From: Paramagnetospirillum magnetotacticum MS-1
GTDB lineage: Bacteria > Pseudomonadota > Alphaproteobacteria > Rhodospirillales > Magnetospirillaceae
NCBI RefSeq assembly: GCF_000829825.1
Contig: NZ_JXSL01000024.1
Location: 1-64,000 of the forward strand
Direction: 5' to 3'
Length of the DNA: 64,000 nucleotides
The position numbers and the translations under genes were made by a program. The notes under the pieces are model-generated. The model did no database searches. It was given only the letters and a program-made list of their open reading frames with translations, and was not told the origin of the DNA. Below are positions 575 through 20,884 of the stretch, in pieces. How positions within the stretch are numbered: the first letter of the stretch is position 1; every line of letters begins with the position of its first letter.

Positions 575-883
575 CTATTTTCCCACCCCATCCGCGACCA
601 GGTGCAGCCGAGCCAGGGCCGAGTCCAGTTCGGCGGCGATCTTGGCCCTCTGATCGGCGGCCTTGGTCTCACGTAAGCGCCGCAGTGCGCTTTCCGCCTC
701 GTTCAATTCGCCGACGCCCCGGCTATCCTGGCGTGTGGCCAGTTGCAGCTTCACCGATTCCAACTCGGCGGATTTGGAGGATTCATAGGCCTTGTCGATG
801 GGCGCAGGCTGGGCCAGCGCCATGACGACGGGAGCTAAGGCCAGCAACACCGCCACTGCGACCAGACGGACCAAAATGCGCAT
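575..883 (-). CDS. Small exported protein, last gene of cassette 1
   Basis: A 102-residue protein with a signal peptide: hydrophobic core about residues 4-21, with probable cleavage after ALA at residue 24. The mature part (~78 aa) is charged and probably helical, rich in Glu, Ala, Leu and Arg. A paralogue of almost the same length ends cassette 2; residues 22-50 are identical in the two, while the rest has diverged. I do not recognise the family. The second ATG (883) is preferred because GGAGG then lies 6 nt upstream; the first ATG is 3 nt earlier. It follows the M50-HlyD gene by about 37 nt and is presumably cotranscribed. A periplasmic helper of the secretion complex is a guess from position only. 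Confidence 0.75.
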   Translation of the reverse strand: MRILVRLVAVAVLLALAPVVMALAQPAPIDKAYESSKSAELESVKLQLATRQDSRGVGELNEAESALRRLRETKAADQRAKIAAELDSALARLHLVADGVGK

Positions 884-920
884 CATGTACCTCCAGGACT
901 TAATGTTTAAGCATAACAGA

Positions 921-3017
921 TCAGGCTCCCCATTCGCGGATCACCACGGCTGCTACAGAGCGAAGAACCCGGCCAACTAGGGAACGGCGCTCGCCATTCA
1001 TCAGCACCTGGCCCCGCACAGGTGTAAAAATGTCCTCTCCGCCCACGGTCAAGCGAACACGATAGACCGCCAGGTCGGGCACGAGAGACTTATTGTCGAA
1101 ACGCGCGGAGATCGCACCGCCATAAAGAACCGCCAGTTCCGGGTCGGCCAGAGATTTGACGGCGGTGCGGTCGATACCGATGACCGTGGCGGAGCGGGCC
1201 CCACCTGAGCCTTCGGGAATGAAGGTGGCTGATGCGCCAACCGCGATACGGGGCAGATCATCCTCGGCGACGTAAGCTTCGATCTGCGTGCCTGAGCGAA
1301 GGGCCATCATCGGCTCCCTGGGGCCGATCCACTGACCGAGCTGCACCACGGGCGACAGGTCGATGACGGTACCATCGATGGAAGCGGTCAGCATCAGGCG
1401 GGATTGATCGCGGGTGAGCGCGGTGCGCTCCGCCATGACCGATCCCAGTTCCTGGACAATGGCCTGGGCGCGACTGCGGAAGCTGTCGTCGAAGCCAACG
1501 GCCTCGATCTCATATTTCAGCACACCGATACGGCGCTCGATCTGCGCCAGACGTAGCGCCATGTCTGGATTGTCAAGGCGAGCCAGAACCGTTCCGATGG
1601 TGACCTTGTCCCCGGCTTTGACAACCAGTTCACCGATCACCCCTGGCAATGGGGCGTAAACCACCATGTGATCCTTGGCCTTGAGCAGCGCCGGAGCCGA
1701 TACCCGGCTGCTCCATGGCACCACGGCCAACAGAACCAACCCGGAAAACAGGCCGAAGGTGATCCGGCTGCGCTTGGTCGTCCGAATTGCCCTCGCCTTC
1801 TCCCACCATTGATTGAACTCGACGAAGAATGGCCGGGCCACGAACCAGCCGATTTCGACGCAGAACAGCATCACCCCGACCACCTTGATAAAGAAGTGAT
1901 AGACCAGCATGGCGATGCCGAGAAACAGCGTCAGGCGGTAGATCCATATCGCCCAAGCGAAGGCGATCACCCCGGCGTGGATACGGGGAGGAAAGCATTC
2001 GGGGATGGTTTCCCCAAGCCCGAATAGGACCTCGCGCAGATGCCAGCGGGCCAAGGCGAAGGCGCGATTGTGCAGGTTGGGCATGTCGAGCGCGTCCATG
2101 GCCAGGAAATAGCCGTCGAAGCGCATGAACGGCGAAAGGTTGATGGCAAGCGATGAAATCCAGGTTGTCGCCGCCAAGGTGAAGGCTAAGGACTTGGCCG
2201 TGCCGTCGGGGAGCAGCCCCCAGGCCAAGGTCGCCCAAGCCGCCAAAGCCAATTCGGACAGGATACCGGCTCCGCCGACCATCAGCCGCTGGCGGCGCGA
2301 GGTTAGCTTCCAGGCTTCGTTGACGTCAGTATACAGCACCGGCATCAGCACCAAGAAGGCCACTCCCATGGTGGGGACACGCAGTCCATAGGATTTGGCC
2401 GTCAGCGCATGGCTCAGCTCATGGACGATCTTGGCAAAGCCCAGGGCGATGCCAAACGAGGCCAGCCCCTCCATGGAGAAATGATCAACGAAGGTCGTGG
2501 TAAAGATGCCCCACTGTCGGCCGACCAGGAACAGGCCGACCACCAACGCCCCCAAGGTGATGAGGCGGAAGGAACGCCGCCCCATCCACTCCACGAAGGG
2601 AAGGATGGCGTCGAGCCATTGGTCGGGGCGCACCAGAGGCACCCGGAAGAACAGATAATGATGCAACGCCCAGGTCAGCCAACCGGTCTTGTGGGCGTCA
2701 TGGATGGCCAACAGGCGCTCTACATCCCTCGACCCCGACGGCTTGAGCAACTGGCTGCGTGCCAGGAACTCAACCACGTCACTCACGTCGTCGGCCTCCA
2801 AGGCCAAGGTCGTTTCGGCGGATACGGAGAGAGCGATGGCTTCGGAGTGTCCCAGATGCCACCGCGACAGCACCTCGAAAACAGGCCAAGTCAGGCGGAA
2901 GAACTGGTTACGCAAAGGATCGTGCAACAGCCAGGTCGGCGCCCCGTCATGGCCGACCGGGCCGGAATGAAGCGCCAGTTCATCGCGCAGGGCCGGGAGA
3001 GCGGCGCCGGCCGACAT
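921..3017 (-). CDS. M50 (site-2-protease-like) metalloprotease fused to HlyD-like adaptor, cassette 1
   Basis: A 698-residue membrane protein. Residues ~15-90 resemble a PqqD-like winged-helix domain. A polytopic region follows with the M50 zinc site HELSH (H199, E200, H203) and the third-ligand segment MRFDGYF (D301). After a last membrane segment near residue 440, the C-terminal ~240 residues form a HlyD-type barrel-sandwich/hairpin region (GDKVTIGTVLARLD and a long polar helix). The family usually cleaves membrane-embedded substrates; here the natural candidates are the cassette's own exported proteins (inference). ATG at 3017 is chosen because it lies 2 nt past the stop of the preceding gene; an upstream start would overlap that gene by 55 nt. 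Its cassette 2 paralogue has the zinc residues at the same positions. Confidence 0.88.
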   Translation of the reverse strand: MSAGAALPALRDELALHSGPVGHDGAPTWLLHDPLRNQFFRLTWPVFEVLSRWHLGHSEAIALSVSAETTLALEADDVSDVVEFLARSQLLKPSGSRDVERLLAIHDAHKTGWLTWALHHYLFFRVPLVRPDQWLDAILPFVEWMGRRSFRLITLGALVVGLFLVGRQWGIFTTTFVDHFSMEGLASFGIALGFAKIVHELSHALTAKSYGLRVPTMGVAFLVLMPVLYTDVNEAWKLTSRRQRLMVGGAGILSELALAAWATLAWGLLPDGTAKSLAFTLAATTWISSLAINLSPFMRFDGYFLAMDALDMPNLHNRAFALARWHLREVLFGLGETIPECFPPRIHAGVIAFAWAIWIYRLTLFLGIAMLVYHFFIKVVGVMLFCVEIGWFVARPFFVEFNQWWEKARAIRTTKRSRITFGLFSGLVLLAVVPWSSRVSAPALLKAKDHMVVYAPLPGVIGELVVKAGDKVTIGTVLARLDNPDMALRLAQIERRIGVLKYEIEAVGFDDSFRSRAQAIVQELGSVMAERTALTRDQSRLMLTASIDGTVIDLSPVVQLGQWIGPREPMMALRSGTQIEAYVAEDDLPRIAVGASATFIPEGSGGARSATVIGIDRTAVKSLADPELAVLYGGAISARFDNKSLVPDLAVYRVRLTVGGEDIFTPVRGQVLMNGERRSLVGRVLRSVAAVVIREWGA

Positions 3018-3019
3018 GA

Positions 3020-4306
3020 TCAGAAGCCCACATATTGGCGAATGGTCGCCAACGGCTTCCTGAACAGCCACCACACCAGCGGCACGGCATCACCGTCGAT
3101 GCGAGCCGTTCCCTTGAGGCCCAGACGTGGCCTGTCGGCCGGATCAGCCAGACTGGCGCGGACCCGATGGACGATGGTGCTGTCGGGCCGGGCCGATGCC
3201 TCGTAGGCTATGCTGCGCACCGTGGCATGCACAGGCGACAACGGGGCGGTGTTGAGGAACATGGTCAGCCGTGCTCCCGCCGTAACCTCGCCCACATCGG
3301 CAACGGCCACCCAGGCATCGATCTCGGTATCCTTCTCGTCGGCCACCGCCATCACTTTCTCGCCCACCGCCACCGGCTTGCCGATCCAGTCGGTGGGATC
3401 ATCGAACACCACCACACCGGCGCGAGGAGATTTGACGGAAATACGGGCCAGCTGACTTTCCAGCAGGCGAACATCGGCGGCCTTTTCCTCGGCCTTGCCG
3501 GCCAGGATCGCCACCTGCGCCTTGGCCTTGCCATCGAATACCATGGCCTGAGCAGCCTGACGGTATTCCGCCTCGGCGGTGGCCCATTGCTGACGGGCCA
3601 CGTCCAGCCTGCCCGTCAACTGTGTGGCATCTAGTTCAAACAGGGGCTGGCCTTCGCTCACGCTGTCATTGGGCTGAACGGCGATATGGTCAACGACACC
3701 ATCGAGCGGCGCACGAACAATGATGGGATGCGCTGGAACGGAATCGGCGGGGGCCAACACTGAGCCAGTCACCGGAAACAGCGCCACAGCCAGCGCGGCG
3801 ATGGCACCGATGCGGGTGCGGCGGCCGTCCGCCGCCTTCAGGCGTTGGCTCAGGGTGGCGCGTGGCAAGAGCGCCAAGCGCGACACCCGTACCAGGGAGG
3901 CGAGATGGGCCAACAGGGCAATCTCCTGCTCGGCAAACGCCTCATCACGGGCATAGAGCAGCGTCTCGCCGTCCATGGGCAGGCCCAGGGCATGGACAGG
4001 CAGCCAGTCACTCCATTGCTCGGTCAGGCCGGCGGGTAAGGCGGCAGCCGTCAGGGCGGTGGGAATACTCAGATTGGACAGATGACGAAAGACCTGGCCC
4101 AGCCACAGCAAATAGGGGCTGCCGCTTTCCACCGTCGCCGCTCCCGACACGGCGATCACTCCGTCGGCCCTTCCCCACAAGGCCGCTTGCCGGTAAGGAA
4201 TCAGGGTGTGAGCAAGATTGACAGCCAGGAAGGCCACCTCGATAGGCCGCTTGGCGGCGAGGATACGTTGTTGTAGATCGAGGAGAGAGAGAAAATCCTC
4301 GTTCAT
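3020..4306 (-). CDS. GAF-like domain plus HlyD-family adaptor, cassette 1
   Basis: A 428-residue protein. Residues ~1-155 look like a degenerate cytoplasmic GAF-type domain (pattern ...LLYARDEAF.EQEIALLAHLA...). One membrane segment follows at ~165-185, then a periplasmic HlyD-like part: a half lipoyl motif (APLDGVVDHIAVQ), a coiled-coil hairpin ~225-290, the second half lipoyl motif (SPRAGVVVFDD) and a beta-barrel. Membrane-fusion proteins bridge inner-membrane machinery to TolC-like channels; an N-terminal sensor-like domain on one is unusual. Its ATG overlaps the stop of the short adaptor gene by 4 nt, and its stop is 2 nt before the M50 gene. The GAF assignment is by pattern only; the HlyD assignment is firm. 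Confidence 0.82.
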   Translation of the reverse strand: MNEDFLSLLDLQQRILAAKRPIEVAFLAVNLAHTLIPYRQAALWGRADGVIAVSGAATVESGSPYLLWLGQVFRHLSNLSIPTALTAAALPAGLTEQWSDWLPVHALGLPMDGETLLYARDEAFAEQEIALLAHLASLVRVSRLALLPRATLSQRLKAADGRRTRIGAIAALAVALFPVTGSVLAPADSVPAHPIIVRAPLDGVVDHIAVQPNDSVSEGQPLFELDATQLTGRLDVARQQWATAEAEYRQAAQAMVFDGKAKAQVAILAGKAEEKAADVRLLESQLARISVKSPRAGVVVFDDPTDWIGKPVAVGEKVMAVADEKDTEIDAWVAVADVGEVTAGARLTMFLNTAPLSPVHATVRSIAYEASARPDSTIVHRVRASLADPADRPRLGLKGTARIDGDAVPLVWWLFRKPLATIRQYVGF

Positions 4307-5031
4307 GGCGGGGGAGTAAGCAGCACCTTGCCGCTCATGCCCGCAGACAGCTCCGGGAACCGCCCGCCGATGGTGCCCATCATCCTCACCGTTTGGCTGA
4401 CTGGATCAATGCGGGCACCTGCTCGGACCAGCTTGACCGGATAGGTCCTGGTTGTCTCGTCGATCACCACCTGGAAGGCGTACCCTGGCTTCAGCCAAAT
4501 CAGCCATTTGCTGGGCACCACGAAATCAACCTCCAGTTCGGTGTCGTCCAGGATGTCCAGCAGGGCTTGCCCCGGCTGGACAAATTGCTGGGAACGGGCC
4601 TTCTGCTCCACCACGCGCCCATCAAATGGAGCGGGGACCTGACACTTGGCGACCACGGCAGCTCCAGCCGAATCCTTGGCGCGGGCCTTATCGACTTCGG
4701 CCTGGGCGAGGTCGTATTCCAACTTGCCGATGGTCTGAAGCTCCAGCAGCCGCTTATTGACCGCCACGGTCTTTTCCGCAGCGCTTAAGGTCGCGCGGGC
4801 TTCGGTCAGTTGCGCCCGCTGCACCGAGCAATCGAAGGCGATCAGCGTTTGTCCTTTGGTAAATCGCTCGCCTTCACGCACCGCGATCTTTTCCACCTTG
4901 GCGCCGATCTCCGCGGCTAGGGTGGTATAATCGCGCGGCGTCAGCTGGGCACGGATGTCACCCTGCGGGGCCTGAGCCCAGGCGGCACCTGGCAGGGTGA
5001 CCGCCAGGACAAGGAGGAAACGTCGCAGCAT
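4303..5031 (-). CDS. Short periplasmic HlyD/RND-type adaptor, cassette 1
   Basis: About 242 residues with a cleavable signal peptide (LLVLAVTLPGAAWA|QA). A compact adaptor follows: half lipoyl motif near residue 50 (VREGERFTKGQTLIAFDC), helical hairpin ~75-130, second half lipoyl (VPAPFDGRVVEQKA) and a short beta-barrel ending in LSAGMSGKVLLTPPP. It is shorter than typical RND adaptors and lacks a membrane-proximal domain. Of the two adjacent ATGs, the downstream one (5031) is better spaced from GGAG. It starts about 14 nt after the giant protein gene ends and overlaps the next gene by 4 nt. It is probably one layer of a periplasmic conduit joining the other two HlyD-like proteins to the TolC-like lipoprotein. 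Confidence 0.88.
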   Translation of the reverse strand: MLRRFLLVLAVTLPGAAWAQAPQGDIRAQLTPRDYTTLAAEIGAKVEKIAVREGERFTKGQTLIAFDCSVQRAQLTEARATLSAAEKTVAVNKRLLELQTIGKLEYDLAQAEVDKARAKDSAGAAVVAKCQVPAPFDGRVVEQKARSQQFVQPGQALLDILDDTELEVDFVVPSKWLIWLKPGYAFQVVIDETTRTYPVKLVRAGARIDPVSQTVRMMGTIGGRFPELSAGMSGKVLLTPPP

Positions 5032-5044
5032 CATCTTCTCCAGC

Positions 5045-8000
5045 CTAGGCGGCGTGTCCGCTCGGCGTCGCGGCCCGGAACAGAGCCATCTGCTTAGCGA
5101 TGCGGCCCTGATGGCCGCTGTCGCGCAGTTGCTGGGTTAGCGAGGGCTTGCCCACGGGCTTCAGCAGGCCTTGGCGACCACCGCCAGGGGCGGCGCCGCC
5201 CTGAGGTTGGCCGTCACTACTGGGAGCGACTTGCCCCTGCCCGGCTTCGCCCACCTTGATGCTGAAGGTCTGCACCGCTTCACGTCCCTCGGCGTCCCGG
5301 GCTACCACCTTGACCGTCACCTCGCCCCGGAAGCCGGGCGGCGGAGTTCCTTCGAAGGTGCCGTTTTGGGGATTGAAGCTCATCCATCCCGGAAGAGCGG
5401 CGCCGTTGACCTGTTGCGCGCTCAGGGTCACCGTTGCGTCGGCCTTGGTATGGGCGAAGGACTCGGCGGAAATCTGCACCGAAATCCGGCTGCCCGCATC
5501 CACGGCAGCGTCCCGGATCGGCGCGGCGACAACCAGAGCGTCGCCACTTCCAGTTCCCCGAGCCGCCACGGCCACCTGGAAGGCACTGGGGGCGGATACC
5601 GTTCTGGCATCCGGCACCACCGGTACACCAGCTGTCGCTGCGCGGGCCGCCGCCGAGACACCGGCGCCGGAAGTCGCCCCACCAGATTCACCGCTGCCGC
5701 TCGCGCCCGCCGCAGTGCCCGAACCCGCACCGACATTAGCAGTCCCTGCGCTTGTCGCGGTTCCCCCTGCAACGCCCACACCGGTTCCACCGGTCCTGGT
5801 ACCGCCATTCTCGCCACCGGTGCCGCCAGTGGTCGTGCCACCGGTTCCATTTCCAGTCCCGCCAGGGCCACCGGCGAAGCCGACGCCCGTGCCACCAGCT
5901 GTGGCACCGCCCGAGGTTCCGACACCGCCATTCTCACCACCGGTCCCGCCAGTGGTCGTGCCGCCGGTTCCAGTTCCGGTCCCGCCAGTGCCACCGGCGA
6001 AGCCGACGCCCGAGCCGCCAGCCGTTGCTCCCCCGCCCAAGCCCACACCGCCAGATGTTCCGCCCGTTCCAGTTCCAGTCCCACCCGTGGACGGGCCGAA
6101 GCTGAATCCTCCGGCCGAGGCACCGCCGCTGAAGCCTACACCGCCAGATGTTCCGCCCGCTCCACTTCCGGTCCCACCCGTGGATGGACCAAAGCTGAAA
6201 CCGCCAGCCGTGGCACCGCCGCTGAAGCCCACGCCGCCAGACGTGCCTCCCCACCCCGATCCGCCGCCCTCATTGGGCAAACCAAAGCCGCCACCAGAGG
6301 ATGTTCCTGTCCCAGTTCCCGCGCCGGTACCGGTTCCGGGGGTGACTCCGCCACCACCCAAGGCTGCGCCGCCGTTCAGGCCGATGCCTCCAGAGGTCGA
6401 CGGCGGCGGCGAGGCATGGGGCGGGGCGTCGAAACTGAACGTCGCCGTCTGCGAGGTCGTGCCTCCGTGGTCGTCACTGGCGGTAATGGTAGCCGTATAG
6501 GTACCTGTCCCGGAGGGAGTGCCTGAAATGGCGCCGGTGGTCGGATTGATGGTCAGACCCGGCGGTAGATTGGTAGCGGTATAGGTAAATGGATCGCTGT
6601 CGCCATCGGTGAAGGTGCCGGGCGGCAGGGGATAGTTGAAATTAACACCCTGCACCCCCTTGGGCGCGCTGGGCACCGGCCCATTCTGTGGCGTCGTGTT
6701 GGCGCGCAGAGTCAGAACCTTGTCAAAGCTGTTGCCGCCGATATCGGTGGTGCGGACCCGGACGGAATAGCTGCTCCCAGGGGTCAGGGTCTGGTTATTC
6801 ACCGACAGGGAGTTCCCCGAAATCGAAAACTTGGCGTTGTCGGTGCTGCCCGCCCCGGCCACCAGGGCGTAGGTGAAGGTGGAATTGGACGACAGATCGG
6901 TGGTGGAGAAGGTGCCGATGGTGGCGTTGGCGTTCCCCGCCTGGTTGATGTCGGTGGTGGATAGGGCAAGGTTCGACGGCGCATTGGCGTCGATGCGCCC
7001 GGTGGTCGTCACCATGGCGGTGGTGTAGGCCGCACTGGAATTTCCGGCGCGATCCACCAGAACCAAATTGACCGGGATCTGCCCGCCACTGGCCGCCACA
7101 TCGCCGCCGCCATCGGCGACGGTAAAGGTGGCGCTCAGATGGGTGGCGTCCACAACGCTCAGGCTTCCCAAGGTGAAGCCGTCGACGGTCTTCGCCGTGC
7201 CCAGGCTATAGTAGCTGTCATTACCGCTGTCAGCGGCCAGGGTGATGGTGGCGGTGATGACGTCGCCTACCTTGTTGGTGGCGTTGGGGATGCTGATCGA
7301 CGAGATCACCGGCAGGGTATGATCGACGGTATAGGCCTGGCCGCTGAAGCCGCCGGTGACAGCCTTGCCATAGGCGATATCGGTGATACCGGTCCCGGCA
7401 TTATTGAGGTTCAGCGCCAGATCGCCGTCGCCGGTGATTCCGGTAACGGTGACGGTGTAGGTCTTGTGGTCGCCACTGTCGGTCACGCTGGCGATGGTGC
7501 CAGCGGCGGTGGTGGCGGACGTGACCGCGCCTGTGGCCGTTCCCGATGTGGTGGCCAGCGCGAAATCAGAGGTATCGACCCCGGCGACCGCCGCGTTGAA
7601 GGTCACCGTCCAGTCACGGCTGGTGGCGTTGGTGTAGGCGGTGGCTCCGGCGGCCCGGTCGAGGGATGAAACGCTGGGGCCGTTATAGACGTCGATCCGG
7701 ACCGTATCGGTGGTGGTGCTGTGGCCGTCCGAGGCGGTGACTTTGAAATAGGACGCCCCCGCATCCGATGCAGCCGAGGTGCCGGAAAAGGTCCGGGTTC
7801 CGGCGGTAAAGCTCAGCCATCCCGGCAAGGCTCCGCCATTGACCAGCGTCCCGGACGAATCGACCCGCTGGACGCTATAGGTCAGGGCATCGGCATCGGC
7901 GTCATGGAAGGTGCCGGACGGAACCTGATAGGTAAAGGCGACGCCGGTCACTGAGGTCTGAGTGGATTGGGCGGCGCTGACCACCGGAGCGCGGTTGAGG

Positions 8001-10831
8001 GTGACGGTGGAATAACCCGCAGAAGTCAGATCGCCACCGGAACCCTGGCCACCGCTGTTGCCGTCATGGAAGGTCCAGTCCAACTGCGCCGTCTGAGCAC
8101 CATCGGCCGAGGGCGGGCTGGTGCGTGAATAGGTGATGTGGTCGAGCACGTCGTTGACCAGGACGGTGGTCGGCTTGGTGCCGTTGTCGGCGAAGGTCAG
8201 CGTGAAAGTGCCGCCGGTCTCGGAGAAGGTGGCGATGACGTGGCCGCCTGCCGAAACATTACCGCCGCTGACTGTATAGCCCGAGCCGTTGGCCACCGAG
8301 ATCACGTCGTTGGCATCCGCCCCGGCATGGTTGACAATGCTGACCGAGGCCCCGGCGTAATTGCCGCTGCCGCCATTGGCGGCGTCCAGTTCCACATCGG
8401 CGATGGTCGCTCCGGAATCCAGGGTGGCGGCTCCGACGCCCTGGTACCAGGACACCGCGTTGGTCATGCCCGACAGGCTCGGCGCCTCGTTGATGGCGGC
8501 GATGGTGACGGTCTGGTCGGCGGCTGTGGCGAGGTTCCATTTGTCGGTGGCGACGAAATGCACCGTCCGGCTCGACGTGCCGGGAGCGTGGGTATTGTCG
8601 TCGTACAAGATCGCCTGGGCCAAGCCACTAACCAGGGTATTGGTGGCGCTGGCGTTGAAGGTGATGGTCCAGGTGGACGAACCGGTCACCTGGGTAGCGC
8701 TGGCGGTGCCGATGGCGGTGTTGGCACTGCCGTCCCAATACTTGATGGCATTGCTGCTGGCGGCATCGACCCAGTACCCCGCCGATCCCGGCTGGCTGGT
8801 GGCCAGATACAGTTTGTCGGTGGCATCGGCATTGGCGCTGATATTCACCGCGAGCGTCCCGCCATTCCATTCGGTATTGCCGTCGGCATCGGCAATGCTG
8901 ATGGCGGGAGCAACTGCGGTCGGGGTGCGTTCGGTGTAGGCGGTGGTGCCGCCCGCCGTCACCGTGGGCGCATTGTCCACCAGGGCACTGAAGCTCTTGG
9001 TCGCCGTGGCGGTGCCGTCGCTGACCTGAACGGTGAACGTCTCGGTGCCGACGAATGAGGCGTTGGGGGTATAGGTGACGGCACCTGTGGGCGAGATTGT
9101 GCCAGCGCCCGAAGTGCCGGTGGCGGAGGTGAAAAGCAAACTGCCGCCATTGTTGGGCGCAACGCTTTGCGACCACGTCTCGGTCTGGCTGGAGTCCGAA
9201 TCGGTAATGCCGAGATACGAGGTGATGTCGTGCGCTGTGGCACCAGGTGCAAACGTCAGATTGGTGGTGCCGCTGCTAACAAAGGCAGGTGTAACGTTGG
9301 GGTTGTAACCAAAGCTTTCCTGATCTGAAAGGCCGGTCAGAGGTATTCCAGTGCCACTGGCATACAAATAGAATGAGACGTATTTCGTGCCTGCTCCGCC
9401 AGTGGGAGCACCGCCAAGGTCTGCCCATGTGACGCCCCAGTCATGCCCAGTGAAGTCACCCCATCCGCTGTTAAAGTGTGTGATAAGAGTGTATTCAGTT
9501 TGAGATCCCCACTGCCCCTTTATCGTGAACGGCCCATCCGTATTTGTAGATGAATTATAGATATTGAATGTGAATTTTAGACCGGTTGCGGTTTGCGATA
9601 CATTCCAAATACTATAAATCGTTAAGGTCCCGTTGCCAACCGAGAGGAGATCATGCGCGTACTGATACACTCCGTCACTCAGTGTCCCTGTGAGATACTT
9701 ATTAGAGCTACTCACGTATTCGAGAGTCCAATTCCCATTGTTGCCGGTGGTGTCGGTAGAGGCCGCCACGTCCGCTCCAGTCGCCGCCGCAAGGTCCGTG
9801 GCAAATTGCCGTCCATCATCTCCCTTGGCCACATCGCAGCCATAGAGTAACAAACCACCATCGGCATTGAGGGAATGTCCAACCTGGTCCAGTTCCGCTT
9901 GGACCACGGCATCACCCAGGGATGAGTCATTGACGGTGCTAGTCCCAATTCTCACAGCGGCTTCAGCGCCGTGCGACAAGATGGAAATGCTGTCGTAGCC
10001 AGCATGGGTCTGCGCCCACTTTGCCATCTGTGCCAAGCCATCTTGGCTGCCGTCGATTAGTTCGATCTCGACGCCCGGATTTACGGCAGCCATCAATGTG
10101 CGGTAGTCGGCAACGCTGGTGTCGATAAACACCACCTCGGTCTTGCCGCCGTTCAACGAGGGATCAGCAGGCTGCACCTGAATGGCACCGGTAGAGGTAT
10201 CAAGCGTCCAATGACCGTCGGCGCCGCTGGGATCGGTGGTGTCACTGAACGCGCCCACCGTCGCGCCCGTAGCGATGCCCATATCCTTCACCAGAAGCTG
10301 TCCGTCGAGGCCTTGCCCGACGCTATTGGCCTCGATCAGCAGTTCACCGCTCGACTTCAGCGCCGCGCCGATTTCAGCCATCTCCGCCTGGGTGGCGGCG
10401 CCCGACAGGCTGGCATCGGCAATGGTGTCGGTACCGAGTTGCAGCGACGCCTCGGAGCCGCGCCCGATCACCGTGATGGAATCATAGCCGGTATTGGCTT
10501 CCGCCCATTTCGCCATCTGCGCCAAGCCGCTCTGGCCGCCGTCGATCTCGACGATTCCTACGCCGTCCTTCACCGCCGCCTCCAGCGCTTGATAATTGGC
10601 AAGCGCGGTGTCGACGAACACCACCTCCTTCTTGCCGCTATCCTTGGACGGGTCGGCAGTGCGGACCACGGCGGGAGCGGTAACATCGGGAATCAACGCC
10701 TTGGCGGCCGCATCGGCAGCGGCATGGGCGGCATCCACCACGGCGGCGCCGTCGAACATCATGCGCGGTTCCAGGGCAAGAATACCTGCCGCCAGATTGA
10801 TTCGCGAATTCTTGCGCTTGATGTGGCTCAT
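5045..10831 (-). CDS. Giant DUF4347/Ig-like surface or secreted protein, cassette 1 (1928 aa)
   Basis: Residues 20-29 carry LEPRMMFDGA, a signature of large DUF4347-containing exported proteins. Two DUF4347 domains follow (~68-215 and ~231-375). They align without gaps at an offset of 163 residues, but only the second has SHG (H287) and YGC (C332); the first has R124 and N169 there. Residues ~380-510 come from an AT-rich segment of unknown function. Then come cadherin/He_PIG/Ig-like repeats (~515-1440), a Gly/Thr-rich linker (~1450-1690), a C-terminal Ig-like domain and a tail containing SLTQQLRDSG. There is no classical signal peptide, no RTX nonapeptides and no sortase signal. GAGGA lies 9 nt before the ATG. 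It follows the TolC-like gene by ~80 nt. It is likely a secreted or surface adhesin, possibly with protease-like activity in the second DUF4347 (inference). Confidence 0.9.
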   Translation of the reverse strand: MSHIKRKNSRINLAAGILALEPRMMFDGAAVVDAAHAAADAAAKALIPDVTAPAVVRTADPSKDSGKKEVVFVDTALANYQALEAAVKDGVGIVEIDGGQSGLAQMAKWAEANTGYDSITVIGRGSEASLQLGTDTIADASLSGAATQAEMAEIGAALKSSGELLIEANSVGQGLDGQLLVKDMGIATGATVGAFSDTTDPSGADGHWTLDTSTGAIQVQPADPSLNGGKTEVVFIDTSVADYRTLMAAVNPGVEIELIDGSQDGLAQMAKWAQTHAGYDSISILSHGAEAAVRIGTSTVNDSSLGDAVVQAELDQVGHSLNADGGLLLYGCDVAKGDDGRQFATDLAAATGADVAASTDTTGNNGNWTLEYVSSSNKYLTGTLSDGVYQYAHDLLSVGNGTLTIYSIWNVSQTATGLKFTFNIYNSSTNTDGPFTIKGQWGSQTEYTLITHFNSGWGDFTGHDWGVTWADLGGAPTGGAGTKYVSFYLYASGTGIPLTGLSDQESFGYNPNVTPAFVSSGTTNLTFAPGATAHDITSYLGITDSDSSQTETWSQSVAPNNGGSLLFTSATGTSGAGTISPTGAVTYTPNASFVGTETFTVQVSDGTATATKSFSALVDNAPTVTAGGTTAYTERTPTAVAPAISIADADGNTEWNGGTLAVNISANADATDKLYLATSQPGSAGYWVDAASSNAIKYWDGSANTAIGTASATQVTGSSTWTITFNASATNTLVSGLAQAILYDDNTHAPGTSSRTVHFVATDKWNLATAADQTVTIAAINEAPSLSGMTNAVSWYQGVGAATLDSGATIADVELDAANGGSGNYAGASVSIVNHAGADANDVISVANGSGYTVSGGNVSAGGHVIATFSETGGTFTLTFADNGTKPTTVLVNDVLDHITYSRTSPPSADGAQTAQLDWTFHDGNSGGQGSGGDLTSAGYSTVTLNRAPVVSAAQSTQTSVTGVAFTYQVPSGTFHDADADALTYSVQRVDSSGTLVNGGALPGWLSFTAGTRTFSGTSAASDAGASYFKVTASDGHSTTTDTVRIDVYNGPSVSSLDRAAGATAYTNATSRDWTVTFNAAVAGVDTSDFALATTSGTATGAVTSATTAAGTIASVTDSGDHKTYTVTVTGITGDGDLALNLNNAGTGITDIAYGKAVTGGFSGQAYTVDHTLPVISSISIPNATNKVGDVITATITLAADSGNDSYYSLGTAKTVDGFTLGSLSVVDATHLSATFTVADGGGDVAASGGQIPVNLVLVDRAGNSSAAYTTAMVTTTGRIDANAPSNLALSTTDINQAGNANATIGTFSTTDLSSNSTFTYALVAGAGSTDNAKFSISGNSLSVNNQTLTPGSSYSVRVRTTDIGGNSFDKVLTLRANTTPQNGPVPSAPKGVQGVNFNYPLPPGTFTDGDSDPFTYTATNLPPGLTINPTTGAISGTPSGTGTYTATITASDDHGGTTSQTATFSFDAPPHASPPPSTSGGIGLNGGAALGGGGVTPGTGTGAGTGTGTSSGGGFGLPNEGGGSGWGGTSGGVGFSGGATAGGFSFGPSTGGTGSGAGGTSGGVGFSGGASAGGFSFGPSTGGTGTGTGGTSGGVGLGGGATAGGSGVGFAGGTGGTGTGTGGTTTGGTGGENGGVGTSGGATAGGTGVGFAGGPGGTGNGTGGTTTGGTGGENGGTRTGGTGVGVAGGTATSAGTANVGAGSGTAAGASGSGESGGATSGAGVSAAARAATAGVPVVPDARTVSAPSAFQVAVAARGTGSGDALVVAAPIRDAAVDAGSRISVQISAESFAHTKADATVTLSAQQVNGAALPGWMSFNPQNGTFEGTPPPGFRGEVTVKVVARDAEGREAVQTFSIKVGEAGQGQVAPSSDGQPQGGAAPGGGRQGLLKPVGKPSLTQQLRDSGHQGRIAKQMALFRAATPSGHAA
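9280..9720 (-). other. AT-rich segment inside cassette 1 giant gene
   Basis: This part of the gene is visibly richer in A and T than the GC-rich repeat DNA around it. It encodes residues ~370-515, just after the second DUF4347 domain, with many aromatic and Asn residues (for example WNVSQTATGLKFTFNIYNSS). I do not recognise a domain. The contrast suggests a module acquired separately from the repeats. Confidence 0.55.
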
Positions 10832-10912: not shown

Positions 10913-12727
10913 TTACCGCACTGATGCGAGATCTTCCGGCCTAGCGGCTTGATCCTTCCCGAGACCGTCCTTCAGAAAGCGAAACGCCTTGTCGAAAATG
11001 CCTGGGCGCTGATCACGCGCATCTTCCAGCGTCGAGGGCGGCGAGAGCTTGATGGCATCCTGGGGGGCGCTCGCGGGAGGAGCGGCAACCGCCTGGGGCT
11101 GCTTCAGTCCATCCTGGAAAAAGCGGACCACGCCGGACAACAGATCGGGCGTGTCCTTGGCGGGTGCAACGGCCTCGATAGCCGAAGGCGGCGGCGCAAC
11201 GGGCGTCTCCTCTGCCACCATTGGGGCAGCCATCTCGCCCTTGCCCCATTGCTCCAACCGCAGCGCGATAATGGTGCTGAGGCCGTTGAGATCGGAGACC
11301 TTGATGCTGTCAGGCAGTAGATCATCGCCCAGCGTGGCCTGCATCTTGGCGTAGGCCTGCTCCACCTGGGCGTAGGTCTGGAAGCGCCGCAATTGCGAGG
11401 CGATGGCCGAGGCATGACCGGCCACGCGCTCCAGAATACCACTGGCGTCATTGGCCGCCTTGGCATCCGACAACTCTGCCAGCCGCCTGTCCACCTTCCA
11501 CAGATCGTCCGACTGCGTGAACTGGCTGCTGGCATTGCGGAATTGCCGCTCCGAGACATGGACCTGAGCCAGAACCGCCATGCGCAACGCCAGACGCCGG
11601 GCCTTGGCGGTCTCTTCGTTGGCGTCGGCGTATTTCAACGCATCATGGCCCGAAATCACGTTCATCAGGTTCCACGACAGCTTGGCCCCGGCCTCGTACC
11701 AGTGGTTGTCCATCAGGAAGCTGTTGTAGTCGTAATTGCGGCTGGCGGAGAAGGTGACGCCGGGCAGCATGCGGATAATGGCCTTCTTGGTGTCATCCAG
11801 GGCGATACGGGTCAGGTAGCCCTGCTCACGCAGATCGGGATTGTTGACGAAGGCCGTCTCTTCCATGCGCTCCAAGCCCATCTGCCAGTCGGGCAGCTTC
11901 ATATCGGTTGGAACATCCAGGACCAGATTGGTTCCCGGCGGCACGTTGATCAGTGCCGCCAGTTCAATGCGGGCGGTGGACAATTCCTGCTGGATCGCGG
12001 TCAGCTGACGGAGCGTTTCCAGCAAGGATTTCTGGTAGCGCAGGCTTTCGACCGGGGCTTTGAGGTTCTCCCGCTCCACCAGACGGGCCTTGTCCAGCGC
12101 TACCTTAGCCTCGGCCACCGCCGCATCGACCTCGCCGTTGAGGGTTTGGTAGGCGGCGGCACGCCAGAAGGCGAAGCGCACCTCGGAGATCAGGTTGTGG
12201 ACGGCCTTGCGTCGGCGCTCGGTCGCCACCAGGGCGCGGTCGGCGTTGGACTTGGCCGTATAATAGGTCAGGCCGAAATCCAGGACGTTCCACGACATGG
12301 TCAGATCGGCGGTCTTGGCGACGCGATCGGCGGAATAGCTGGGATTGGAGGTCGAGGTCGTCTGAGTGTAGAGATCACGCGACCTAGTGGAATTGGGTTC
12401 GGAGCGCTCGTTGTAGCCGGCATTGGCGGTCAGTTTAGGCAGCAGGTCCCAGCGGTCCACATCGGTCTGGCCGAGGGCCAGCGCCTCCTCCATCATCTTG
12501 GAGCGCTTGTCCAGGTTGTAGCGCACCGCGCGGGCAATGGCGTCCGATACCGTCAACGACTTGGTCAGGAGCTCGCCGCCCTTGAACATGTCAGCGAGAT
12601 CCTCCCTGGCATGGGTGGCCAACTCATCCTTGGTGAACGGTTCGGGCGTCACTGCGCAGGCGGCCAGTAGGGCGGCCAGAGAGACGGAGGCCAGCAGACT
12701 GCCGACTCTGAAAGCAGAAAAATTCAT
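10913..12727 (-). CDS. TolC-like outer-membrane efflux lipoprotein, first gene of cassette 1
   Basis: A 604-residue OEP-family protein. The N-terminus has a lipoprotein signal with lipobox LLAAC, so it is probably acylated. The body has the two-fold repeat of the TolC family: long helical stretches, beta segments such as TADLTMSWNVLDFG and GAKLSWNLMNVISG, and a NNPDLREQGY turn. A Pro/Ala-rich extension of ~100 residues follows the OEP fold. The start is set at the ATG directly preceding the signal peptide, with GGGAG about 10 nt upstream; a longer in-frame ORF would run through the promoter. It would form the outer-membrane exit duct. The paralogue in cassette 2 sits after its giant gene instead of before it. 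Confidence 0.9.
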   Translation of the reverse strand: MNFSAFRVGSLLASVSLAALLAACAVTPEPFTKDELATHAREDLADMFKGGELLTKSLTVSDAIARAVRYNLDKRSKMMEEALALGQTDVDRWDLLPKLTANAGYNERSEPNSTRSRDLYTQTTSTSNPSYSADRVAKTADLTMSWNVLDFGLTYYTAKSNADRALVATERRRKAVHNLISEVRFAFWRAAAYQTLNGEVDAAVAEAKVALDKARLVERENLKAPVESLRYQKSLLETLRQLTAIQQELSTARIELAALINVPPGTNLVLDVPTDMKLPDWQMGLERMEETAFVNNPDLREQGYLTRIALDDTKKAIIRMLPGVTFSASRNYDYNSFLMDNHWYEAGAKLSWNLMNVISGHDALKYADANEETAKARRLALRMAVLAQVHVSERQFRNASSQFTQSDDLWKVDRRLAELSDAKAANDASGILERVAGHASAIASQLRRFQTYAQVEQAYAKMQATLGDDLLPDSIKVSDLNGLSTIIALRLEQWGKGEMAAPMVAEETPVAPPPSAIEAVAPAKDTPDLLSGVVRFFQDGLKQPQAVAAPPASAPQDAIKLSPPSTLEDARDQRPGIFDKAFRFLKDGLGKDQAARPEDLASVR

Positions 12728-12833
12728 AGCGTGGCTCTCCCGCGCACGACAAGGCATAATTCGTTCGTATTGTGTACGCCATTCGGAAGGGGCAACTCGA
12801 CCCGTTCGTTCTACGAGAAACGCCCAAATTTCA

Positions 12834-12857
12834 ACGAGATCAGGCAATGCCCAGCAA
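12834..12857. promoter_or_regulatory. Candidate regulator-binding element between cassette 1 and its AraC gene
   Basis: ACGAGATCAGG, then 8 nt, then AGCAA. The intergenic region of cassette 2 has ACGCGATCAGG, 7 nt, AGCAA at 36062-36084. Both lie mid-way between the divergent starts. The two regions otherwise share little, so this is the best candidate for a common operator of the paired AraC-type regulators (inference). Confidence 0.4.
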
Positions 12858-12946
12858 GTCTGTTTATCTTCAGATGGACGTATGGCACGAGTAGTGACCT
12901 ATTGTGGCGAATTGGTATGGCAGGCCCAAAAAAGGCACCCGTCAGG

Positions 12947-13960
12947 ATGAAACCCGGATACGACAGCATCGTTCTGAATTGGCTGATCGACCCCCAGCAA
13001 AGCTGGACGGAAATTCGCGCCGTTGATCGAGATATAGAATGCAGACAGGCCCCCATGCCCCTTGAATTGGGCGTGGGCTGGATATCCAAATACGATCTGC
13101 CCATGGGAATGTCAGTCTTGCGCGCTGACTATCGCTTCAACTCTTCGGCCACTGGAAAACTGGTGCAGACCGCAAGGCTGGAAGCCTCTTTGCCCGTAGA
13201 AACGCTGATGCTGCATACGCTGAGTCATGGCCGCAGCATCCAAGACGATCACATCTTGAAAGAAACTTTCAGCTATGGCGTTGGATTTGACCTGTTTCGC
13301 TACGCCCAAGAAGTAGCCGTGACCCCAGCCGTTGACTGCACCTTTAACTGCCTCGCCACGGTCCTGGCGGTGGGACGGCCCGCCTTGGCCAACCTTCTGG
13401 GAGCGACGGTCGCCGATAGAACCTTGGTCGCCCTGGGGTTGGAGGTAGCCCCCACTGTGGTGGTTCGGGCCATGCCCCCAAGCATCTCATCGATTTTGCA
13501 GAAAGCCATTCCAAACAACATGACGGGCTTAATGCGCACCCTGTTCATCCAGGCTCGGGTCCTTGATTACCTGACCGCGTTGATTGATCATTTGGGCACC
13601 AATGAGAGTGATGCCCCGCCTGTCAAAGTCGCAACCCAACGGGCTAAAGACCTGCACGAATATCTAGTCAACACCTGCGGAAAGCTGCCAACGCTGGAAT
13701 TGCTCGCAGCCCAGTTCAATGTATCGGTTCGCACCTTGAACAATGACTTCCGAGCCGAATATGGGCAGCCCATCCATGCGTTCGTCGCCGAACATCGCTT
13801 GTCAGAAGCCCACGTCGCGATAGAAAGAAGCGATATTCCCCTTAAGACCTTGGCCGAGCGCCTTGGATATTCCCACGTCAATCATTTCCTCGCGGCATTT
13901 CGCAGGAAGTTCGGATATCCACCCGGAAACTTAAGAAAAAGGCAGCCGCGTGAACCGTAA
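12947..13960 (+). CDS. AraC-family transcriptional regulator, divergent from cassette 1
   Basis: 337 residues. The last ~100 residues form the two-HTH AraC domain: LELLAAQFNVSVRTLNNDFR, then LKTLAERLGYSHVNHFLAAFRRKFGYPPG. The N-terminal ~220 residues resemble the effector/dimerisation region of the paralogue at 36157. The ORF is open 216 nt further upstream, but similarity to the paralogue begins at this ATG (MKPGYDS versus MHSAYEF) and the extra part would cover the shared promoter, so the shorter start is used; no strong ribosome binding site is visible. Divergent placement suggests it controls cassette 1 and perhaps itself; the ligand is unknown. Confidence 0.85.
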   Translation: MKPGYDSIVLNWLIDPQQSWTEIRAVDRDIECRQAPMPLELGVGWISKYDLPMGMSVLRADYRFNSSATGKLVQTARLEASLPVETLMLHTLSHGRSIQDDHILKETFSYGVGFDLFRYAQEVAVTPAVDCTFNCLATVLAVGRPALANLLGATVADRTLVALGLEVAPTVVVRAMPPSISSILQKAIPNNMTGLMRTLFIQARVLDYLTALIDHLGTNESDAPPVKVATQRAKDLHEYLVNTCGKLPTLELLAAQFNVSVRTLNNDFRAEYGQPIHAFVAEHRLSEAHVAIERSDIPLKTLAERLGYSHVNHFLAAFRRKFGYPPGNLRKRQPREP

Positions 13961-14723: not shown

Positions 14724-16829
14724 TCAGGCACCCCATTCGCGGACCAGAACCACGAGGGCGGAGCGGACGGCGCGACCGATCATGCTCTGGCCCTGCCCAC
14801 TGATGATAGCATGTCCAATCAACTTTATATCGGGCGCCGGGCCGTTAAGACGGATGGTGACGCGGAAGAATCCGCCCTGGGGCACCAGAGCCTGGCCGGC
14901 GGCACGCACCGGTATGTCGCCGCCATGGAGCGAGGTCAGGGCCGGATCGGTCAGCACCTTGACTGGATTGCGGTCGATGGATAGCACCTTGCCCGCCATA
15001 CCGGCATGGTCGAGGCCGTGGGGGAGGAAGCGGGCGTCATCACCTTCCTTGATCCGTTCCAGATCATCCTCGGCCACATAGGCTGTGGCGATGGCGGCGC
15101 CGTCGGCGCGGATCAGGCCCAACTGCTGCTTCGGTGACAGCCAGGCGCCGGGCTTCAGGTCCGGCAGCGGATCGAGGAACAGACCGGCATGGGGGGCGAT
15201 GATGGTCAGCCGTTCGGCCTCGGCATCCAGCGCCGCCTTCTCTGAGCCGAGCCGCGATAATTCCTCGGTCAAGGCCGAGAGGCGCTCACGGCCGAACGGA
15301 TCGAGCTTGACCGCCTCCAACTCGGCCGCCTTGCCCTCCAGCCGGGCAGCGGTGATGGCGCGCCTTGCGTCGATGTCGGGAGCGATGAAGGTCAGTAGCT
15401 TGGTTCCAGCCACCACATGCTGGCCGCGCTCGACCAGCACCTGCTCCAGTCGGGCTGGTGCCGGCAGGAAGAGCGGTGCCACGATCTCGGCAGTAACCGA
15501 GGCCGGAGCCTCGACCCGCGTGCGCCAGGGAATGATCGCTACCAGCAGGGCAAGGCCGAGGCCGATCAGCGGACGCCTCCACCGGGTGCCTTTGAGGATG
15601 TCACCTCGGCGCTTGCCCCATTGCTTCACCTCATTCCAGATGGGCAGGCACACAAACCAACCGATCTCGACGCAGAACAGCAGCACGCCCACCGCCTTGA
15701 TGAAGAAGTGGTAGACCAAGGCGGCGATGCCGAGGAACAGCACCAGCCGGTAGATCCAGACGGCGAAGGCGAAGGCCACCATGGCCCGGCGTCGATGGAC
15801 ATCCATGGCTTCGGGGGCAGGTTCGCCCAGATCGAACAGCACTTCGCGCAACCACCACCGCGCCATGGCGAAGGCCCTGGGGTGGAGGTTGGGGAGTTCC
15901 AGGGCGTCCATGGCCAGGAAATAGCCGTCGAAGCGCATGAACGGCGACATATTGATGGCCAGCGAAGACACCCAGGTGAAGGCGGCCAACACGAAGACGC
16001 CCTGGCGCAACGCCCCCTCAGGCAGGAAGGCCCACAACAGGGTCGCCCAGGCCGCCACCGCCAATTCGGCCATGATCCCCGCCGCACCGACCAGCAGCCT
16101 TTGATGCCGCGAGGCCAGGGTCCAGGTCTCATTGACATCGGTATAGAGCACCGGCCACATCACCAGGAAGGCCGCTCCCATGGTGGGAACCCGACAGCCG
16201 AACCGCTTGGCGGTGAGGCCGTGGGCCAGTTCATGCACCACCTTCACCAGCGACAGAGCGATGCCATAGCTGACCATGCCGCTGACCGAGAGGGTATCAA
16301 CCAGGGTGGTGGTGAAGACATCCCATTGCCGAGCGACCAGCACCAAACCCAGCAACAGCGCGCCCAAGGTGGTCCAACGGAACCAGACACTGCCCAGCCA
16401 CGCCACCAGCGGCAGCAGCTTGCCCAGGAACCGATCCGGCCGCACCAGGGGGATGCGGAAGAACAGGTAATGATGGAGCAGCCAGTTGAACACCGAGTGC
16501 TTCTCGGCCGCCGCCTGCTCGGCCAGCCGGGCAGTGTCGGCATGGCTGTTGGCCTGGGTAAGCTGGTTGCCGTACAGGAACTTGGCGACGTCCATCACCT
16601 CGTCATCAGTCATGTCGATGGTGGTCTCGGCCCGCACCGCCTCGGCCACCTCACCCGCCGTGCCACCCCAACGGGATAGGGCCTCGAAGGCGGCCCAGCC
16701 GATGCGGAAATATCGGTTTCTCACCGGATCCCGGATGGTCCAGGTGGGCGAGCCGTCGAGGGAGGCCGGGCCGGGATGCAGCGACAGCTCATCACGCAAA
16801 CCCGGCAATGGCATGGTGGCGGCGTCCAT
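14724..16829 (-). CDS. M50 protease-HlyD fusion, cassette 2
   Basis: 701 residues, colinear with the cassette 1 protein. PqqD-like N-terminal region (~15-90), polytopic M50 domain with HELAH (H199, E200, H203) and MRFDGYF (D301), then a C-terminal HlyD-type region with lipoyl-like segment VERGQHVVAGTKLLTF. Both copies end in V(L/I)REWGA. The catalytic residues are intact in both, so the protease activity is probably under selection. The stop of the preceding gene is 2 nt before this ATG. Confidence 0.88.
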   Translation of the reverse strand: MDAATMPLPGLRDELSLHPGPASLDGSPTWTIRDPVRNRYFRIGWAAFEALSRWGGTAGEVAEAVRAETTIDMTDDEVMDVAKFLYGNQLTQANSHADTARLAEQAAAEKHSVFNWLLHHYLFFRIPLVRPDRFLGKLLPLVAWLGSVWFRWTTLGALLLGLVLVARQWDVFTTTLVDTLSVSGMVSYGIALSLVKVVHELAHGLTAKRFGCRVPTMGAAFLVMWPVLYTDVNETWTLASRHQRLLVGAAGIMAELAVAAWATLLWAFLPEGALRQGVFVLAAFTWVSSLAINMSPFMRFDGYFLAMDALELPNLHPRAFAMARWWLREVLFDLGEPAPEAMDVHRRRAMVAFAFAVWIYRLVLFLGIAALVYHFFIKAVGVLLFCVEIGWFVCLPIWNEVKQWGKRRGDILKGTRWRRPLIGLGLALLVAIIPWRTRVEAPASVTAEIVAPLFLPAPARLEQVLVERGQHVVAGTKLLTFIAPDIDARRAITAARLEGKAAELEAVKLDPFGRERLSALTEELSRLGSEKAALDAEAERLTIIAPHAGLFLDPLPDLKPGAWLSPKQQLGLIRADGAAIATAYVAEDDLERIKEGDDARFLPHGLDHAGMAGKVLSIDRNPVKVLTDPALTSLHGGDIPVRAAGQALVPQGGFFRVTIRLNGPAPDIKLIGHAIISGQGQSMIGRAVRSALVVLVREWGA

Positions 16830-18142: not shown

Positions 18143-18900
18143 GGGGCGGGCATCTGGACCCGCCCGGTCATGCCGGCGATCAGCTCGGGATAGTCACCCC
18201 TTACCTCGGCCACCACCTTGACCGAATGGCTGACGGCATCGACCTTGGCGCCGACACGGGCGATCTTGGCCGGATAGACCTTCTTGACCTCGTCCACCGC
18301 CACCTGGACCACCAGACCGGGCTTGAGGTTGCGCACCCAGCCGGATGGTACGATGAATTCAGCTTCCAGGGCAGAATCGTCGAGGATGTCGAGGATGGGC
18401 TGGCCCGCCTGGATGTATTGATGAGCCCGAGCCTTCTGCTCCACCACCCGCCCTGAGAACGGCGCGGTGATGCCGCATTTGGTGGTGACAGCGCGGGCCG
18501 AGTTGAGCTTGGCCTGGGCCACGGCAGCGTCAGAGGCCGATTTCTCGGTCTCCAGCGTGCCAGCGGAGTTCAGTTCCAGCAGGCGCTTGTGCACCGATTT
18601 GGACTTCTCCGCCGCCCCCAGGACGGCTTGCGCCTCATCCAACTGCGCCCGCTGGATGACGCAGTCGAAGGCCACCAGTTGCTGGCCTTCCTTAAAGCGG
18701 TCGCCCTCTTTGACGCTGATCCGATCGATCTTGCCCGGCAGCTCTGCAGACAAGGTGGTGTACTGCACCGCCACCAGTTGGACCGGAATCACCGGTTCCT
18801 GGGCCACTGCCCCGAAGGACAGCAGGCACAGGACCGGGACCGCCCATCCCCAGTGGGCTGCAAGCCCGCCCTTTCCCGAGTCTGGGCGGGAGCTCATCAT
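18139..18900 (-). CDS. Short periplasmic HlyD/RND-type adaptor, cassette 2
   Basis: 253 residues, paralogue of the protein at 4303-5031. N-terminal export signal with a longer n-region (hydrophobic core VPVLCLLSFGAVA), then half lipoyl (VKEGDRFKEGQQLVAFDC), hairpin and second half lipoyl (APFSGRVVEQKARAHQYIQ), with a C-terminal barrel ending LIAGMTGRVQMPAP. The motifs match the cassette 1 copy segment by segment. Its ATG overlaps the stop of the TolC-like gene, and its own stop overlaps the next gene by 4 nt. Confidence 0.88.
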   Translation of the reverse strand: MMSSRPDSGKGGLAAHWGWAVPVLCLLSFGAVAQEPVIPVQLVAVQYTTLSAELPGKIDRISVKEGDRFKEGQQLVAFDCVIQRAQLDEAQAVLGAAEKSKSVHKRLLELNSAGTLETEKSASDAAVAQAKLNSARAVTTKCGITAPFSGRVVEQKARAHQYIQAGQPILDILDDSALEAEFIVPSGWVRNLKPGLVVQVAVDEVKKVYPAKIARVGAKVDAVSHSVKVVAEVRGDYPELIAGMTGRVQMPAP

Positions 18901-20642: not shown

Positions 20643-20884
20643 CGTTCAATGTCCCCAAAGCGCGTAGCAACGCCTGCAGCAGCAAAACATTCCGGATCGC
20701 GGAGCACCGACTCGGCAACCGTCATCCGTCGGCCCGAATTTGTCTCAACCAACCGGGCATGGTTCGGCAGGCCGTGAGGTCGGAAGACATCCTCGACCGT
20801 CCAGACCGACCCCCACAGGCCAACCTTCTCGAAGCGAGTTCCAGGCGTCAGAGGGAGGTCCTCCTTACGCTTCATGATGCTCAT
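20639..20884 (-). CDS. 81-aa protein of unknown function, coupled between giant and TolC-like genes
   Basis: 81 residues, basic at the N-terminus, no signal peptide or membrane segment, beginning [20 protein letters not shown]. The central part is probably beta-rich ([13 protein letters not shown]). Its ATG overlaps the stop of the giant gene and its stop overlaps the ATG of the TolC-like gene, a strong sign that it is translated. A second in-frame ATG lies three codons in. No equivalent exists in cassette 1. I do not recognise it; a cytoplasmic chaperone or regulator specific to the larger cargo is possible but unsupported. Confidence 0.7.

Follow-up and report, generated by a model that had tools for sequence, protein, structure and literature searches.

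Two gene cassettes with three HlyD-type adaptors, one fused to an M50 protease, beside tagged giant proteins in Paramagnetospirillum magnetotacticum

Two cassettes and their giant neighbours

The window analysed here, a 64,000-nucleotide stretch of Paramagnetospirillum magnetotacticum MS-1 (contig NZ_JXSL01000024.1, positions 1 to 64,000), carries two related gene cassettes, A and B, each encoding a TolC-like protein (T), three HlyD-type adaptors (S, G and M) and a giant protein, all on the minus strand. Established here are the genes and domains of both cassettes, their conserved catalytic residues and gene order, the association of the cassette with an N-terminal tag on the giants and the absence of an ATP-binding cassette (ABC) gene from among the cassette genes. 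Between A and B, the corresponding proteins are 50% (M), 45% (G), 51% (S) and 54% (T) identical.

In cassette A, T is a TolC-like outer membrane factor (10913..12847; Pfam OEP, E 9.1e-24) in which a lipobox-like LLAAC can be recognized by eye, and its true start is likely internal. Next to it lies the open reading frame (ORF) of a 1928-residue giant (5045..10831), a putative cargo with the N-terminal tag LEPRMMFDGA (core LEPRMMFD, 10751..10774, minus strand), DUF4347 domains (9692-10135 and 10175-10624), immunoglobulin-like and cadherin-like repeats and the C-terminal sequence GKPSLTQQL. The 243-residue S (4303..5034) is a soluble adaptor of the HlyD/resistance-nodulation-division (RND) type (TIGR01730, 114.4 bits, cut-off 94.9) with a signal-peptide-like start, whose second methionine is at position 5031. 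G (3020..4306, 428 residues) has a cytosolic domain, one transmembrane segment (hydrophobic residues 166-184) and a periplasmic HlyD part that follows it (HlyD_3, E 4.8e-19). M (921..3074) combines an apparently PqqD-like domain, an M50 protease and an HlyD part; it measures 717 residues from a GTG and 698 from the ATG at 3017, the likely start.

The giant of cassette B (20881..35937, an ORF of 5018 residues) is encoded upstream of T, S, G and M and has the tag core LEPRWMFD (35863..35886, minus strand), two DUF4347 domains (34795-35247 and 35275-35736) and the C-terminal sequence GKLAFTQQL. T (18897..20642; OEP, E 2e-23) has a lipobox-like LLSAC by eye; S (18139..18900) scores 126.9 bits with TIGR01730 (cut-off 94.9); G (16832..18142) matches HlyD_3 (E 5.9e-20) and, under its cut-off, GAF (E 0.0015); and M (14724..16829) has the same order of domains as its counterpart. 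The HlyD_3 and OEP matches place both an HlyD-type adaptor and a TolC-type outer membrane factor in the cassettes.

A sequence-only reading of positions 921 to 5031 had described three HlyD-type proteins per cassette, one of them fused to an M50 protease. Both points are borne out, as all six adaptors exceed the Pfam cut-off for HlyD_3 and both M proteins that for Peptidase_M50, the cassette A copy barely (27.4 versus 27.2 bits). The soluble form with a signal peptide and the single-pass form with a cytosolic domain that it distinguished are S and G in both cassettes, and the identical positions that it gave for H199, E200, H203 and D301 in the two M copies are correct if the ATG start is taken for A. 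That reading made no mention of the cargo tag, of the lack of an ABC gene among the cassette genes or of the apparently PqqD-like domain at the N-terminus of M.

The M50-HlyD fusion and its companion adaptors

The HExxH motif of M begins at residue 199 (HELSH or HELAH), and the third ligand, D301, lies within SPFMRFDGY in both copies. A scan of genome contigs yielded at least 574 related stretches, of which the best 80 loci were used for all counts out of 80 below; by their record titles these include alpha-, beta- and gammaproteobacteria, Magnetococcales, Nitrospira and Desulfo-type metagenome-assembled genomes. We aligned 56 M homologues, namely the two from the window, six from class-search loci and 48 from the 80 loci picked for full length and spread. 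H199, E200, H203 and D301 are invariant in all 56, and their shared positions in the two window copies are thus not due to chance. PF02163 (Peptidase_M50) was likewise matched in 56/56 at E values up to 5. By its HExxH motif, distant aspartate ligand and profile match, M is assigned at the level of sequence to the M50 (site-2 protease) family. In NCBIfam the highest-scoring family for M is NF041824, the M50 protease of daptide systems (148.5 and 162.1 bits for the two copies). The daptide and YydH/LiaK M50 proteases (NF041824, NF058609) belong to peptide maturation, in which leader binding by PqqD-like domains is a theme; M differs from these in remaining below the curated cut-off of 300, in its extra HlyD domain and in having a giant rather than a short peptide as its partner.

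An AlphaFold model of the cassette B M protein, built with the 56 sequences (mean predicted local distance difference test score, pLDDT, 89.5), predicts three strands followed by three helices at residues 16-87, then the M50 membrane part and additional helices as far as residue 432, and finally the HlyD part, which resembles chain 9qgy_G of a MacAB-TolC structure (Z 15.9, root mean square deviation 3.4, 218 aligned residues). A fold search with the whole model returned HlyD-type adaptors and biotin-carrier-like chains, the HlyD part filling the matches listed. The N-terminal domain looks like PqqD: a profile-profile comparison with 30 PqqD sequences in hhalign gave a probability of 86.7% and a score of 33.1, while 30 column-shuffled control profiles reached at most 16.1. 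PqqD was also sought in five M proteins of a sister subfamily introduced below: L201 reached 35.9 bits, above the cut-off of 23.4, two others gave weak matches and the last two none. A phmmer search of PDB sequences with the N-terminal 115 residues of M matched only a ferritin (E 0.24). PqqD-like folds bind leader peptides in peptide maturation.

The genes travel together. The order T-S-G-M was found in 54 of the 80 loci, G-M alone in 12, G-M-T-S in three, S-G-M in three and G-M with S-T on the opposite strand in two; the remaining six comprise M alone (3), T-M (1) and two in which overlapping ORF starts blur the order. Some of the G-M-only loci end at contig ends, and three (L038, L046 and L066) have full flanks with no T or S within reach. 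G accompanies M in 76/80 loci, and at two of the four exceptions (L042 and L074) the sequence extends no more than about 1 kb upstream. Such co-travel argues against a role of the three adaptors with unrelated partners, the outcome that would have spoken against the sequence-only reading. In the five reordered loci, with G-M-T-S or with S-T on the other strand, the genes divide into G+M and T+S.

The published hairpin motif by which adaptors dock TolC is RxxxLxxxxxx(S/T), also written RLS/RLT (PMC3391258). The R is present in 38/64 and the L in 51/64 S sequences, the third position being E or D, not S/T, in 63/64, and inspection by eye showed neither the R nor the L in G or M. Together, the split of the genes and the partial motif suggest that S docks TolC atop an inner-membrane G-M unit. 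The hetero-oligomeric conduit coupled to proteolysis put forward in the sequence-only reading receives partial support, fitting the co-travelling genes and the strictly kept zinc ligands, and its layered arrangement would be refined to S-TolC on G-M. Within the G family, PF01590 (GAF) was matched in 11 of 41 aligned members (the two from the window and 39 taken from 66 usable G sequences; best E 2.5e-6), the cassette A copy being unmatched.

The N-terminal tag and its association with the cassette

Candidate giants, defined as the longest ORF of at least 600 residues rich in G, T, S, N, D, A and V beside a cassette, were found in 58 of the 80 loci; 34 are cut by the start of the locus and 24 have their ORF start inside it. 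We sought the tag as LE[PQSE]Rx[MLIV][FYL][DSN] within 250 residues of the ORF start and found it in 18 of these 24, a count that starts from cassette neighbours. Its consensus is a basic stretch followed by LE[PQS]Rx(M/L)FD[GA]A. The six misses look like artefacts: four ORFs (L026, L057, L068 and L072) contain 8-17% arginine and are probably shadow ORFs, one (L036) has a run of X near its start and one (L071) opens 99 bases from a contig end. The tag was seen too at L069, L086 and L091. Across all 1147 ORFs of at least 300 residues in the loci, the motif occurs in 22, one of them unrelated (L021), and in the whole genome of MS-1 the DNA pattern for LEPRxMFD has two matches, which are the two giants of the window. 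An alignment of cargo N-termini comprised 18 tagged and the two window sequences; its rows were chosen by the tag, so that tag invariance there carries no weight.

A second motif, GKxxLxxQL, recurs at the C-termini of many giants and was found with the pattern G[KR]...[LFIV]xxQ[LFMIV] in 34/55 candidate giant C-termini, some from doubtful ORFs, as against a shuffled expectation with a mean of 0.47 and a maximum of 3; over all ORFs of at least 300 residues it occurs in 44/1147, giants counted in. In two Nitrospira-type giants (L076 and L083), a hydrophobic stretch stands at the end in its place.

Their DUF4347 domains co-occur with M on a genomic scale. With the sister subfamily counted in, 84 of the 299 genomes sampled from the phylum have an M homologue at E 1e-40, and many surface proteins may thus use the system. 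DUF4347 is present in 71/84 genomes with M as opposed to 13/215 without it (both 71, M only 13, DUF4347 only 13, neither 202), giving a Fisher p of 2e-41 that is inflated by relatedness; in a class sample the corresponding numbers were 8, 3, 9 and 220. Of the genomes that have DUF4347 but no M, 21 in all, nine were sampled with one DUF4347 stretch each; in every frame of these nine stretches both kinds of tag were absent, as were matches to T, S, G, M and ABC proteins, although the ORF at L197 opens inside the domain. DUF4347 was rejected as a mark of the cargo, since three tagged giants (L065, L087 and L091) have no clear DUF4347 and the nine M-less DUF4347 loci have no tag.

The giant N-terminus was modelled with AlphaFold at a mean pLDDT of 81.7, falling under 50 in the tag region. 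In this model the fold of the second DUF4347 domain is similar to that of caspases and CHAT proteins: it matched 9qpe_G of an Hcp3-Tce1 complex (145 residues, Z 13.1), caspases (Z about 7) and, in between, a SAVED-CHAT protein (Z 9.1); Foldseek placed FabG chains on top at low TM-scores, with caspase-like matches at row 4 and from row 11 onward. SHG and YGC motifs are often kept in aligned DUF4347 domains and in the window giants occur in the second domain, not the first. They could form a His-Cys pair, which makes self-cleavage of the giants possible.

A second line of association comes from a sister subfamily of M with the same PqqD-M50-HlyD architecture (L198-L202 and L205-L212; about 300-370 bits), the HExxH and third aspartate ligand being intact in the five members compared. 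The window tag resembles a variant form of the NCBIfam domain LEPR-XLL (NF012209) but reads LEPRxMFDGA rather than LEPRLLLSAD, and giant A, the one scanned, scored 10.3 bits with a cut-off of 17. LEPR-XLL exceeded its cut-off in all 11 genomes taken as the sister kind (E 0.0023 or better), one of which (G550) has a further partial match that may belong to the main subfamily. The LEPR-XLL ORF and M lie on one contig, close by coordinates, in seven of the 11 (G285, G292, G407, G422, G429, G447 and G546) and on different contigs in the other four. Eight sister tags follow [LIM]E[PNE]R[LYVI]LLSAD, with EPR in six. One sister ORF linked to M spans 10,327 residues; the open frames of the LEPR-XLL matches above cut-off range from 144 to 12,249 residues, 9/13 being over 4,000.

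These patterns bear on whether the giants belong to the system. It could be that the adaptors and protease serve efflux or signalling and that the giant merely adjoins them, as the GAF domains matched in some G proteins, suggestive of ligand sensing, would allow. The association of tag with cassette, the tracking of tag type with M50 subfamily and the genome-wide co-occurrence all speak against such chance adjacency, which we consider highly improbable.

Proposed export of the giants and its possible source of power

The reading that we favour, at about even odds, is that the cassette is a dedicated trans-envelope exporter of one tagged, giant, multi-domain surface protein, in which M reads and probably trims the tag. 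In this scheme the PqqD-like domain of M would recognize the N-terminal tag (probably) or the C-terminal motif at the inner membrane, and the M50 site would trim the tag or a nearby segment upon engagement or release of the cargo. G and M would form the inner-membrane unit, with the cytosolic domain of G as a sensor, and S would dock the TolC-like protein to complete the duct. LEPR-tagged giants, M50-HlyD fusions and multi-adaptor TolC cassettes would thereby be given one shared role.

How the giant crosses the inner membrane was approached through the hydrophobicity of the tag. The best 11-residue Kyte-Doolittle mean has a median of 1.37 in tag regions (n=23) as compared with 2.21 in the signal-peptide regions of S (n=58), control regions that were located crudely and include values down to 0.4. 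The tag core moreover contains E, R and D residues, and by this rough test the tag would in general be a poor Sec signal, with one exception (L069, 2.35) as hydrophobic as a signal peptide. That exception is what would be expected if the giant used Sec at the inner membrane despite an unusual N-terminus of low hydrophobicity, leaving to the cassette its passage across and holding at the outer membrane and to the M50 site a releasing cut. Such a cut would parallel that of LapG, which cleaves the N-terminus of LapA and so releases it; M50 enzymes act on membrane-embedded segments, and S and T themselves, with a signal peptide and a lipobox recognized by eye, resemble Sec cargo. Set against this route are the low hydrophobicity of most tags and the PqqD-like domain, as such domains act in the cytosol, and the route seems to us improbable.

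For an ABC motor, the loci were searched with eight ABC proteins of the MS-1 genome as queries over flanks of up to 10 kb, many of them shortened by contig ends. No ABC exporter lay between cassette genes in any of the 80 loci, and four of the 80 had a weak ABC match (77-99 bits) outside the cassette genes, the nearest (L023, about 3 kb away) resembling a MacB-type ATPase by eye. Among 38 cassette genomes, hand-picked from the 80 loci and mostly isolates, members of LssB, HlyB and PrtD exceeded the curated cut-offs in 14, 19 and 20, respectively, and all three did so in one; no single type I ABC family is therefore common to cassette genomes. Three of the 38 have none of the three families above cut-off, with weaker ABC relatives there. 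The co-occurrence counts did not bring out ABC-free cassette genomes, as 35/38 carry a type I ABC protein above cut-off.

The same 35 genomes lend weight to a type I system whose ABC protein is encoded elsewhere and may act in trans: T, S, G and M would supply adaptors and duct, a shared ABC protein of the LapB/HlyB/PrtD type would power export through the C-terminal motif, present in the majority of candidate giants, and M would be an accessory processing protease. The MS-1 genome has two separate type I-like loci, one on contig C30 (L101), where a cadherin/RTX giant accompanies an ABC gene and an HlyD protein, and the other on contig C27 (L102) with two adjacent ABC genes and an HlyD protein. 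However, known type I sets usually keep their ABC and adaptor genes together, which contrasts with the few weak and never internal ABC matches at the loci, and neither the lack of a shared family nor the three genomes with no member above cut-off is readily reconciled with a common motor; on balance we regard this type I reading as unlikely, though deserving of serious weight.

Type I giant-adhesin systems (LapA/LapBCE and HlyBD-TolC) are nonetheless among the closest known systems, having a TolC-family duct, an HlyD-type adaptor, giant repetitive cargo and in many cargos a C-terminal motif. The cassettes differ from them in having no ABC gene, three adaptors, an N-terminal tag on the cargo and a PqqD-like domain and M50 protease fused to one adaptor. 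Because the ABC feature of type I secretion is not found within the cassette, we do not file the system as type I, though it may work alike. The tripartite efflux pump TriABC-OpmH likewise has more than one adaptor per duct; the cassettes lack a visible RND, major facilitator superfamily or ABC pump, have a membrane protease instead and adjoin a giant protein. A bolder proposal, which we advance tentatively and as something short of probable, is a separate secretion class in which the PqqD-like/M50/HlyD protein replaces the ABC motor: the PqqD-like domain would read the tag, the M50 part would insert and cut it, and G, S and TolC would form the way out for the chain, with Sec or the membrane potential as the source of power. 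If so, a membrane protease would stand in for the ABC motor at an adaptor-TolC duct through which proteins of thousands of residues leave the cell, and the LEPR-XLL domain would be the address tag of the sister branch.

Several observations weigh against a dedicated exporter built around M. Most cassette genomes carry a type I ABC protein that could help in trans, no recognized ATP hydrolysis is encoded in the cassette although a cargo of 1900-5000 residues needs power, and the giants keep a conserved C-terminal motif as type I cargo would, a motif that is itself missing from three giants (L076, L083 and L089). The PqqD-like call is weak by plain Pfam, which matched PqqD in 1/56 M members (E 0.06). 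At two loci (L052 and L090) there is room beside M for G, which was not found even with a better profile. The co-occurrence is also imperfect, with 13/84 M genomes lacking DUF4347 and 13/84 DUF4347 genomes lacking M, and LEPR-XLL exceeded its cut-off marginally in 5/39 comparison genomes (E 0.018 or worse) and in 1/14 control genomes.

We found no report of such a cassette in the literature searched, among the matches listed and with most subscription papers outside the reach of that search. A Vibrio giant with a LEPR-XLL domain has been described in a text in which a term search met no mention of HlyD, TolC or a type I secretion system (PMC10868602), and a Psychromonas 'peptidase M50' appears, in the excerpt concerned, as a bare list entry (PMC2405808). 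Two candidates for the same system were set aside on the passages available from their sources, namely mfpABC of V. parahaemolyticus, which has an ABC gene (PMC7923509), and S-layer secretion in M. album, which uses an ABC type I set (PMC13274458).

Each cassette is flanked by a divergent gene for an AraC-type regulator on the plus strand, at 12731..13960 for A (HTH_18, E 1e-19) and at 36121..37182 for B (HTH_18, E 7.7e-22). A 103-residue protein with a hydrophobic N-terminus and no match in a Pfam search is encoded after cassette A (575..886, minus strand), its membership being uncertain. The S-G-M region of cassette A (window positions 1-6053) recurs as a 99.7% identical copy, with 17 mismatches in 6053 bases, on a second contig (C21:4914-10966; L107), with genes for a receiver-histidine-kinase and a receiver-HD protein after it; the copy is either a genuine duplicate or a variant of the assembly. 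Beside cassette B, genes for a MobA/VirD2-like relaxase and an SMC-like ATPase (37986-40553 and 40830-43751) hint at a mobile element.

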